DNA of 34,145 nt from a virus. Positions 2,495 through 18,286 of this stretch are shown here, piece by piece. The stretch covers positions 1 through 34,145 of IMG/VR virus record IMGVR_UViG_3300034418_009637. One strand, given 5' to 3'. A program made the position numbers and the translations under genes. The notes beneath the pieces are model-generated. The model saw only the letters and a list, made by a program, of their open reading frames with translations. It searched no databases and was not told the DNA's origin. Positions within the stretch are counted from its first letter, which is position 1. Each line of letters opens with the position of its first letter.

Positions 2495-3793
2495 TCAATA
2501 AAAGCGTGTCGTTGGCGGGTTGAATTGCAAAGTCAAATCTGCGCACGGTCCGTGACGATTCTTTCCAATCCGGATCAGTTTTTCCCTCGGGGTGTTCGGG
2601 TCGTCGGGGTCTTCCCCCTTCCGGCCAAGTAGAATGATCGTGTCGGCGTCCTGCTCCAGCGATCCTGATTCTTTCAGGCTGGAAACTTGGGGGTCAGTCT
2701 CCTTTGTGTCCCGGCCAAGCTGGGCGAGGAGCACGAGCGCGATGTCGAGCGCCTTGCATGTCTGGTGCAACACGTCAGTGGCGTTGATGATCCGCAGCCG
2801 GAGGTTGCTCCGCTCGTCAGGCAGGGCTGCGGGGAGTTTCTGGATGTAGTCGATGAGGACCACCTTGATCGGCGTCTGCTGGTGCATGCGCCGGATCTTT
2901 GCGGCGATCTCGACGGCGTTTGAAATCCGGTCATCCATGAAAAGCGGCGCCTGCTTGGTGTCCTTCATCTTCGCCTTGATCTTGAGGATGTCGCCCCGGT
3001 TGAGCGTCTTGTCGCGTATCCGCTTGGCGGGCAGGTGGCACGCCATGGCCGTGAGTCGGGTCGTCAAATAGGTCCGCTTGCCCTCGACGGCAAAGAGCGC
3101 GGTCGGCACGCCTTGATGCAGTGCGAGGTTTTCAGCGAGTGACATGGCAAAGGAGGTTTTCCCCATGGCCGGGCGTGCTCCCACTACCATCACCTCGCCG
3201 GGATGGAGTCCCCCGGTTACCTGGTCGACCGCCGGCCAACCGGTTGGGATGCCCTCGCCCTTGTCTGACTCGAGGAGTTGGAGGAGTTCCCGGTAAGCCG
3301 TCTTCAGGCTGTAATCGTATCCCGATCGGTCTTGAGCGTCCTTGCCCAGCGTCAGCGCCCCCAGTTCTACCCGTGACACGATGTCAGAGACTTCCGGGGT
3401 TTGGTAGGCCTCCGACACGATGCGCGTCCCAAAACGGATGATAGCGCGAATGAGAGCGCAATCAAGGACGGCCTTGGCATGCTCGGCAAAGTGCGCGGAG
3501 GTCGGCGCGTAGGTGTAGATTTCGGCAAGGGCTGCCGGGCCTCCCAGCCTTTCAAGCGTCCCGTCCTTCATCATGTCGTCGGTCATGCCGACAAGCTCAA
3601 TCGTTCCGCCTCGGGCCTGTCGATCGACCAGCGCGGAGAATAGGACGGCATGGCCGGGGTGGTAGAATGCCTGCGGGGTGAGCCCCATCTCGACGGCGCG
3701 GGGCGCGTATTCGACTGGATCTTGCAGGATTGAGGATAGGACGGATTTTTCCGGCCCGATGGCGTTGGGTGGTTGTTTCGTGTCTTCGGTCAT
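2495..3793 (-). CDS. dnaB: DnaB-type replicative helicase
   Basis: This 432-residue hexameric helicase should unwind DNA at the phage fork. The N-terminal DnaB domain spans about 10-125. The RecA-like domain has Walker A GARPAMGKTS (205-214), Walker B VVLIDYIQKL (311-320), the QLGRDTK segment and the SLKESGSLEQDADTIILLGR signature of DnaB motif H4. The length fits the family (about 430-470). ATG 3793 is chosen because it overlaps the initiator's stop as ATGA and because the longer upstream frame lacks domain similarity. The leader is the A/C-rich, Shine-Dalgarno-less type. The neighbouring initiator is its probable loader or recruiter. Confidence 0.92.
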   Translation of the reverse strand: MTEDTKQPPNAIGPEKSVLSSILQDPVEYAPRAVEMGLTPQAFYHPGHAVLFSALVDRQARGGTIELVGMTDDMMKDGTLERLGGPAALAEIYTYAPTSAHFAEHAKAVLDCALIRAIIRFGTRIVSEAYQTPEVSDIVSRVELGALTLGKDAQDRSGYDYSLKTAYRELLQLLESDKGEGIPTGWPAVDQVTGGLHPGEVMVVGARPAMGKTSFAMSLAENLALHQGVPTALFAVEGKRTYLTTRLTAMACHLPAKRIRDKTLNRGDILKIKAKMKDTKQAPLFMDDRISNAVEIAAKIRRMHQQTPIKVVLIDYIQKLPAALPDERSNLRLRIINATDVLHQTCKALDIALVLLAQLGRDTKETDPQVSSLKESGSLEQDADTIILLGRKGEDPDDPNTPREKLIRIGKNRHGPCADLTLQFNPPTTRFY

Positions 3794-4653
3794 GGTTGTT
3801 TCGTGTTCAGGTGGTTCTGGATCTCCTCGCGAATGTCGAGGTCGACATGATACCAAATCGCGGGCATGAGCCAATCAGGATGGAGTTGGCGAAAGGCGTC
3901 TTGCCATCCTTCCGGCCCGGTGTCAGTGGGGGGCTTGGGTGTCGAGGTCGTCGGTCCTTCCGGCAGGTCTTCCCACTTCTGGTCTTTGATCCACAAGTGC
4001 AGGCCGGGGGCGTATTGTCCTCCCTCCTTGGTCCAGTCTTCGCAAGCTGACCAGGCCTTGATTGCGGTGATGAGGTCAAGGGGTGTTGGTCTGGATTGCT
4101 TGGGGATCCGTTTCCAAGCGTCAAAGACCTTTTTCTTCGATGAGCGTGTTCTCGATTTGGATGGTGCGAGGTTCCAGATTTCGAGGAGGAGGGCTTTCTC
4201 GTCCGCTTGCGGACAAGAGTCTTGTTCCTTTCCTTTCCCTTCCCTTCCCTTCCCTTCCCCTTTGCCCGCGTGGGTCACGCGTGGGTCACGCGTCAAGCAC
4301 GCGTCGGATTCCTTGCAATTCAAAGGGTCTGGCAGGATTGAGTCCCTTTCCCGGTTGTTGATGACTTGATGGGTCTTGAAGCTCGGGATGTGGCCAAACT
4401 CGCCCGTGTCGGACGCGTATTTCACGATGAAACCACGCGTGGCTAACGCGTCAAGCACGCGTGAAAAGTCGACCTCATCGAAAGGCAGGATCTCGCTTTT
4501 CAGCGTGCGAGGTCGCCACTTGAATCGGCCTTCCCGGTCACTTGCGCACCATAGGCCGATGAAGGCCAGCCGGAGGGGAAGCTTGGTTTCCTCCTCGGCG
4601 TCGAAGAGGTCTTCGTGCCGGAAGAACTCCGGCTTGATCGTTCTGATTCTCAT
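3790..4653 (-). CDS. Replication initiator / replisome organiser-like protein
   Basis: This 287-residue protein opens MRIRTIKPEFFRHEDLF, then LPLRLAFIGLWCASDREGRFKWRPRTLKSEILPF, the winged-helix start typical of phage replisome organisers and O-like initiators. A low-complexity Gly/Lys/Glu linker (about 130-143) separates it from a C-terminal DnaD-like helical region (about 150-215) and a tail. It should bind the origin and hand it to the helicase, whose gene overlaps its 3' end by 4 nt. Its own coding region carries phased ACGCGT repeats, as lambda O carries the lambda origin. The start has no Shine-Dalgarno site and lies just 8 nt past a strong nested hairpin. Confidence 0.78.
   Translation of the reverse strand: MRIRTIKPEFFRHEDLFDAEEETKLPLRLAFIGLWCASDREGRFKWRPRTLKSEILPFDEVDFSRVLDALATRGFIVKYASDTGEFGHIPSFKTHQVINNRERDSILPDPLNCKESDACLTRDPRVTHAGKGEGKGREGKGKEQDSCPQADEKALLLEIWNLAPSKSRTRSSKKKVFDAWKRIPKQSRPTPLDLITAIKAWSACEDWTKEGGQYAPGLHLWIKDQKWEDLPEGPTTSTPKPPTDTGPEGWQDAFRQLHPDWLMPAIWYHVDLDIREEIQNHLNTKQP
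4225..4263. other. 39-nt pure pyrimidine (homopurine on minus strand) tract
   Basis: Every base from 4225 to 4263 is C or T, made of irregular CCTTT and CCCTT units. On the coding strand it gives the Gly-Lys-Glu linker of the initiator. Tracts like this can form triplex (H-DNA) or ease strand opening. Its position, 2 bp from the first iteron array, suggests part of an origin, though it is not A/T-rich. Confidence 0.6.
4266..4462. repeat. Two 11-bp-phased ACGCGT iteron arrays, candidate replication origin
   Basis: Array 1 has CCGCGT at 4266 and ACGCGT at 4277, 4288 and 4299, spaced exactly 11 bp. Array 2 has ACGCGT at 4413, 4435, 4446 and 4457, spaced 22, 11 and 11 bp. The 17-mer ACGCGTCAAGCACGCGT occurs in both arrays. 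An 11-bp period breaks the codon frame, so the repeats are not explained by protein repetition. The location inside the initiator gene parallels lambdoid origins. Elsewhere by eye only one further ACGCGT was noticed, at 17710. Confidence 0.7.
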
Positions 4654-17708: not shown

Positions 17709-18286
17709 TACGCGTCGGGAATGTTGGCGACGTTGGTCAGCTGAATGACGTTCAAGCCGCTGGTTTCAGAGGTGAAGCGCATCCGGGGAAAGACCGACTT
17801 GTCGTTGTAGTTCGGCACTTCGAGCATCTCGAGCTTGCCCCAGAGATCCATGATCCAGGTGTCTGCCTTCTGGTTCACGTTGCGGGCCTGGAACTTGAGC
17901 CAGCCGTAGATCTCGCGGATGTTCTCGGCGTATGGAATGACCGGAGTGTCGTCGACCACCTCAGCACTCAGACCAAGCATAAGGCGATAGATGGGCTCGC
18001 AGTGGCTTTCGAGAGTGAACTCCCAACCGTCTTCCAGAACCACCTGTGTGGTCTTCTGGCGGAAGCGGTTCCCATCGAAGCACTTGAAGGGCGTGTCGTC
18101 TTCGGTGACGCGGTATGGAGTCAGGTCATTGGCGCATCCCAGGGAGCGCCAGTTGGTGGTCGGATCAGTGGTCGGCTTGGCATCGATATCGACGGTGACG
18201 GCAGGGTCATCGTCCACGGTCACCCCCTTCTCGATGAAGAAGAGCGAGGCACCGAGCATGGTCTTTTGCAGGTTGAATTGAGGCAT
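17708..18286 (-). CDS. Tail tube protein
   Basis: This 192-residue protein (FNLQKTMLGASLFFIEKGVTVDDDPAVTVDID, later LEDGWEFTLESHCEPIYRLMLGLS and IREIYGWLKFQARN) matches the plan of phage tail tube proteins: short strands, a central metal- or charge-rich loop and a C-terminal strand sheet. It polymerises into the non-contractile tail. Position after the connector genes fits. The leader is A/C-rich with no Shine-Dalgarno site, as expected for a class of genes here. Confidence 0.7.
   Translation of the reverse strand: MPQFNLQKTMLGASLFFIEKGVTVDDDPAVTVDIDAKPTTDPTTNWRSLGCANDLTPYRVTEDDTPFKCFDGNRFRQKTTQVVLEDGWEFTLESHCEPIYRLMLGLSAEVVDDTPVIPYAENIREIYGWLKFQARNVNQKADTWIMDLWGKLEMLEVPNYNDKSVFPRMRFTSETSGLNVIQLTNVANIPDA

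Follow-up and report, generated by a model that had tools for sequence, protein, structure and literature searches.

Phased CGCG-core palindrome arrays inside a phage initiator gene form a candidate replication origin

Results

Organization of the initiator locus

The window analysed here is the whole 34,145-nucleotide stretch of the virus record IMGVR_UViG_3300034418_009637 (IMG/VR), which carries capsid, protease, portal, and RecE-like genes away from the initiator locus. The features of this locus are listed in Table 1. The initiator gene product matched the PHROG profile phrog_16167 with an E-value of 1.8e-43 over residues 1–111, namely its N-terminal domain. No Pfam match was obtained up to an E-value of 1 and, as judged from its sequence, the family is absent from Pfam. 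The start codon of dnaB overlaps the 3' end of the initiator gene; in relatives, helicase or loader genes also adjoin the initiator gene, with a DnaC-like loader in some of them. In an AlphaFold model of the initiator based on a 90-row alignment, the N-terminal domain had pLDDT values of 91–98 and the element order of a winged helix. By the general winged-helix plan, the third helix (residues 63–72) is predicted to be the recognition helix.

Table 1. Positions of the initiator locus features in the window.
Feature	Position	Strand	Description
Replication initiator gene	3790..4653	minus	ORF of 287 aa; PHROG replication initiation protein
Initiator domains			N-terminal winged-helix domain, about residues 1–110; linker, corresponding to array B and the tract; variable C-terminal domain
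DnaB-type replicative helicase	2495..3793	minus	PF03796, E 2.9e-58; PF00772, E 3.7e-16
Array A	4413..4462	minus	Four ACGCGT (4457, 4446, 4435, 4413); spacing 11, 11, 22
Array B	4266..4304	minus	Three ACGCGT (4299, 4288, 4277) and a degenerate ACGCGG (CCGCGT on the plus strand, 4266); 11-bp pitch
Polypurine tract	4225..4263	minus	39 nt, uninterrupted; (GGGAA)n-like coding strand; candidate opening or loading tract
Inverted repeat CTCTTGTCCGCAAGCGGACGAG	4198..4219	minus	Candidate hairpin that immediately follows the tract; ssDNA energy -6.4 kcal/mol, z -1.84

Phased palindromes in the initiator gene

An earlier note on this DNA had described seven ACGCGT and one CCGCGT in two arrays with 11- or 22-bp spacing, and these positions and spacings were reproduced. 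The 17-mer ACGCGTCAAGCACGCGT, which holds two sites, was likewise found in both arrays, at 4288–4304 and 4446–4462. The count of ACGCGT over the whole window gave eight copies, seven of them in the arrays; the single further copy in 34 kb is at 17710. This total is ordinary (8 vs 7.0 expected), and the seven array sites are packed in 186 bp (4277–4462). Thus, the anomaly of the window is the clustering and phasing of the sites, not their number. Array A codes for the first wing strand and for the predicted recognition helix (TCACGCGTGCTTGACGCGTTAGCCACGCGT, read as S R V L D A L A T R), and array B codes for the interdomain linker.

The gene was subjected to 20,000 synonymous shuffles in which the protein and codon usage were held constant. 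The shuffled genes contained at most five sites and two 11-bp pairs, compared with seven and four in the native gene, and none of the 20,000 reproduced the full pattern. An 11-bp pitch necessarily shifts the frame from site to site, and the ACGCGT sites accordingly occupy all three reading frames. The proposal that amino acid repetition cannot explain the spacing was supported both by this use of all three frames and by the loss of the pattern upon shuffling.

Conservation of the arrays in relatives

Bacterial genomes were searched at the protein level for homologues, which were thus not selected on the DNA pattern; the query alignment was built from array-bearing sequences, and the array-bearing branch may be over-represented. 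Among 77 non-redundant prophage genes obtained in this way, 47 contained at least three ACGCGT. The mean number per gene was 3.2 vs 0.5 in synonymous shuffles, and 11-bp pairs numbered 121 vs 1.1 expected, indicating that the spacing is conserved over codons. The same two gene positions were kept across a large family. The hosts were chiefly alpha-, beta-, and gammaproteobacteria. Acidobacteriota, Planctomycetota, Bacteroidota, and others were represented by single assignments, some of which rest on metagenome bins. A Bradyrhizobium sp. ISRA432 element is one example of an array-bearing prophage. When any mixed 6-mer was counted without reference to a motif, 11 bp was the top lag (941 vs 53).

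Loss of the sites with retention of the protein, which the earlier note had regarded as refuting, was seen in 21 of the 77 genes, which had no ACGCGT; several of these carried another repeated motif. Of the prophage relatives lacking ACGCGT, which make up about a quarter, some but not all had a clear substitute array. The 11-bp lag was weaker in genes without ACGCGT (48 vs 7.7) and absent for palindromic 6-mers, and part of this excess stems from repeats near the tract. The phages HK639, Louie, F10, Bordetella IFTN1, and Acinetobacter SR have homologous initiators without phased ACGCGT; their linkers contain (CTGATTCC)n repeats, coding for IPDS-type protein repeats, and in Louie and HK639 these are preceded by GCAAG-type repeats.

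Viral contigs were also scanned for three ACGCGT at an 11-bp pitch, and at least 119 contigs were found. The array lay inside an ORF homologous to the window initiator in 104 of the 119 contigs listed, and many of the array-bearing genes among these held two arrays. Among the listed matches outside the family, those examined that matched PHROG were replication or primosomal proteins. The median starts of arrays A and B in relatives were nt 194 and nt 361 of the gene, respectively. Viral genes contained 173 11-bp ACGCGT pairs vs 1.25 in synonymous shuffles. Triples at a 10-bp pitch were found in 15 contigs, 10 of them in the window initiator's family, one subfamily of which has a 10-bp step. 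Triples at a 12-bp pitch were found in 24 contigs, none in this family; in several of these, the arrays lay in other PHROG replication or primosomal genes.

Some arrays were located outside the initiator family. In five contigs, ACGCGT was repeated at an exact 12-bp pitch, often as GTNACGCGTNAC; several 12-bp arrays sit in a different initiator family (phrog_2509) and are followed by REEKRREE-type purine-rich linkers. The 12-bp arrays are possibly a parallel type of in-gene origin. In five other contigs, 11-bp arrays of ACGCGT or TCGCGA were located in initiators from different families (phrog_9474; DUF1376/primosomal), and hence the phased in-gene array is not limited to one protein family. 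A lone 11-bp ACGCGT triple was present in a conserved 279-residue ORF that is not initiator-like (L036, 763–790; L046, 915–942; L081, 2204–2231). In L064 (8966–9015), the array lies in a 57-residue fragment resembling a cut-off copy of a window-type initiator, and this contig additionally codes for IHAPLAGRD-type repeats. Four contigs had TCGCGA 11-bp triples in short or unassigned ORFs outside the initiator family.

Palindrome swap and its relation to the protein

Among isolates, ACGCGT arrays occur in Vibrio phages, and TCGCGA occurs at an 11-bp pitch in the same two places in the mycobacteriophages Raymond7 and Fishburne. From the latter, TCGCGA triples were predicted to be a general feature of initiator genes. 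When viral contigs were scanned for TCGCGA triples at the 11-bp pitch, at least 120 contigs were obtained; in 105 of the 120 listed, the array was inside an ORF of the window initiator's family, in most cases at the two positions already noted. The control palindrome AGCGCT, which has the composition of ACGCGT, was found in five contigs and in no initiator. The prediction therefore held. Altogether, the layout with either ACGCGT or TCGCGA was present in the initiator genes of more than 200 phage contigs. The palindrome class tracked the protein tree, with three changes for TCGCGA vs about 55 with shuffled labels, and this agreement was unchanged after the columns around array A (the helix) had been dropped.

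The sites of array B extend to approximately Y-S-ACGCGT-S-R, so that almost the whole 11-bp pitch is taken up by a 10-bp palindrome. At the helix positions coded by the sites, array-bearing genes had R in 71, T in 67, and R in 68 of 72. At the same positions in homologues without phased sites, the two R were found in 3 and 2 of 24, respectively, and T was outside the six commonest residues; the hydrophobic and glycine positions of the helix were conserved even in these homologues. The R/T/R residues may also contact DNA, so that the decisive evidence is the codon shuffles rather than the conservation of these residues by itself.

Short-repeat tract and hairpin following array B

Array B is followed by a short-repeat tract and then often by a hairpin. 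The longest purine run after array B in relatives averaged 31 nt vs 16 nt in synonymous shuffles. A codon test on these runs used a tract defined by its purines and was circular; it was superseded by a test on a linker defined by the protein. In this linker, glycine codons ended in a purine in 380/393 cases vs 822/1939 elsewhere, and arginine was coded as AGR in 109/121 vs 427/2618 elsewhere. The codon choice in the tract thus exceeds what the protein needs. In most TCGCGA-class genes, the tract contains 8-bp units in tandem (GGGGAACA), with units of 6–7 bp in some cases, and in several Pseudomonas, Bordetella, Acinetobacter, and enterobacterial relatives, the tract is replaced by CTGATTCC repeats. 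The AT content of the tract is about 0.45–0.49, and the tract therefore lacks the AT-richness of a classical unwinding element.

In the window, positions 4225–4259 read (TTCCC)7 on the plus strand, and the coding strand has at least four GGG runs. The coding strand of the tract could form a G-quadruplex, and a motif of this type was present in 65 of 151 genes.

Hairpins after the tract were enriched in genes with a purine tract: perfect stems of at least 7 were present in 22% vs 3–5%, and the mean ssDNA energy was -5.4 vs -3.7 kcal/mol in shuffles. In TCGCGA genes, long stems were no commoner than in control windows of the same genes. Because of this mixed result, the hairpin is graded only as a probable part of the layout.

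Discussion

A candidate origin within the initiator gene

The arrays, their phasing, their DNA-level conservation over codons, the palindrome swap at fixed positions, and the conserved tract were all directly observed. We interpret the arrays as initiator-binding iterons of a phage replication origin lying inside the initiator gene, to which we assign a probability of roughly 0.85; the binding and the origin activity are inferred. The candidate origin suggested earlier for this gene was supported by the PHROG initiator assignment with a neighbouring DnaB gene, by the recurrence of the arrays in the family, and by the palindrome swap, in the absence of a replication experiment. Complete circular phage-like replicons in Bradyrhizobium and Endozoicomonas contain the arrays, which is consistent with an origin but is not proof. 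The GC-skew switch anticipated at about 4.3 kb did not appear: neither the window nor the circular Bradyrhizobium phage replicon had a switch at the initiator gene.

Two further signs were considered and dropped. ACGCGT was scarce elsewhere (ratio 0.54), but GACGTC and CACGTG were equally scarce in the same genomes, and avoidance was not retained as a sign of titration. The distances between arrays A and B were clustered with respect to helical phase, yet not significantly when each gap length was counted once.

We propose the following mechanism, of which binding, opening, helicase loading, and replication start at the arrays are inferences only. The N-terminal winged-helix domain would bind each CGCG-core palindrome, probably as a dimer, and the one-turn pitch would stack the bound initiators along one face of the DNA. 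Arrays A and B would jointly wrap the intervening 110–150 bp, and the strain or the bound protein would open the neighbouring short-repeat tract. The linker and C-terminal domain may then recruit the helicase onto the opened strand, using the phage DnaB here and the DnaC-like loader in some relatives. The hairpin after the tract is a possible loading or priming signal.

Alternative explanations

The arrays could instead be operators with no part in an origin, at which the initiator or a different regulator would repress its own operon or set the timing of its expression. Tandem palindromic sites are typical of regulators, and winged-helix domains of transcription regulators were the commonest structural matches. 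However, the sites lie 190–390 nt into the coding region, away from the promoter, just one further ACGCGT exists in the window, and this explanation accounts neither for the adjacent repeat tract nor for the restriction to initiator genes. We regard it as improbable, and a dual role as origin and operator cannot be excluded.

Still less credible is the idea that the arrays are sites for partition (parS-like), packaging, or recombination and lie in the initiator gene by chance. Clustered repeats are possible for such sites, and mycobacterial RepA phages have parS repeats beside repA (PMC7157519), but the palindrome class tracks the DNA-binding domain of the initiator, and the arrays remain in initiator genes across very different phages and hosts. 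Equally hard to sustain is the view that the DNA pattern is a by-product of protein constraint or repeat expansion, with DAxxTRxxRVxxA and the GKGRE linker selected as protein: R65, T72, and R73, which lie within or next to the predicted recognition helix, hardly vary among array-bearing genes, but the three-frame use, the shuffles, the glycine and arginine codon bias of the tract far above protein need, and the presence of TCGCGA at the same positions with different amino acids in another clade all speak against it.

Scope and significance

Beyond the origin reading for this gene, we consider it reasonably likely, with considerable reservation, that the arrays represent an undescribed and widespread class of phage origin. 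Such an origin would comprise two arrays of CGCG-core palindromes at an 11-bp pitch: array A would be embedded in the codons for the recognition helix by which it is read, and array B together with a short-repeat opening tract in those for the linker. Across phages of Pseudomonadota, Actinomycetota, and other phyla, the layout would stay constant, with the palindrome, ACGCGT or TCGCGA, differing along with the protein. No published description of the arrays was found in the full-text literature searched, which leaves most subscription journals outside its coverage; because of this limit, the novelty is provisional. If the origin interpretation is right, the origin could be read from the sequence in hundreds of phages and prophages with unknown origins, including mycobacteriophages and Vibrio phages. 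The family would also be a natural set for studying co-change of initiator and site when the site is the initiator's own coding sequence, and its short-repeat tracts, without AT-richness, would offer a type of opening element open to testing.

Comparison with known systems

A sequence search of PDB chains with the window initiator found nothing, and Foldseek gave only weak, generic winged-helix matches. The window satisfies the sequence criterion for an in-gene iteron origin, in that repeated initiator-type sites lie in the initiator coding sequence and are conserved as DNA; binding of the initiator to them and replication start there are inferred.

The repeats bound by the lambda initiator are located centrally in its gene (PMC7466680). 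The lambdoid parallel drawn in the earlier note was upheld in layout: lambda O and phi80 gene 15, like the window, have a mid-gene origin in which a series of palindromic iterons leads into a tract of special composition, and lambda O has an N-terminal DNA-binding domain, a separate C-terminal part, and an adjoining helicase or loader gene (PMC7466680). Lambda differs in that its four to six iterons are longer and form a single array and in that its tract is AT-rich, whereas the window has two arrays of 6-bp (extended, about 10-bp) palindromes at an 11-bp pitch, a purine or short-repeat tract, and one array within the codons of the binding domain. Assignment of the window initiator to Phage_rep_O (PF04492) was rejected for want of a Pfam match up to E 1, and phi80 gp15 (Phage_rep_O) did not match the family profile of the window initiator. 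A remote link between the window initiator and Phage_rep_O exists through phrog_5810.

In the RepA_N plasmid pSK41, the Rep boxes are central in the rep gene, the linker is coded by the origin, and the N-terminal domain binds the boxes (PMC5703833). The window shares the mid-gene repeats and the linker coded by array DNA. Structural matches of the N-terminal domain included 4pql, 4pt7, and 5kbj ("initiator", "Rep-DNA complex"; Z 5.8–6.5 over 85 residues), with Z values not distinct from those of unrelated winged helices. The repeats differ, and membership in RepA_N by sequence was rejected, as the window initiator has no RepA_N match in Pfam.

The RepA-like initiators of the mycobacteriophages Miko, Rachaly, and Jeeves are required and sufficient for autonomous replication, and the origin of extrachromosomal mycobacterial prophages is supposed to lie within or beside repA, with no repeated motifs reported (PMC7157519). 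The window resembles Miko, Rachaly, and Jeeves in the presumed position of the origin in or beside the initiator gene and differs in its repeats, none being reported for these phages (PMC7157519); Raymond7 and Fishburne do carry TCGCGA arrays. Membership of the window system in the lambda O or RepA_N groups has not been shown; from this comparison, the best explanation appears to be that it works like both in layout, with a different initiator family, different iterons, and a different opening tract.
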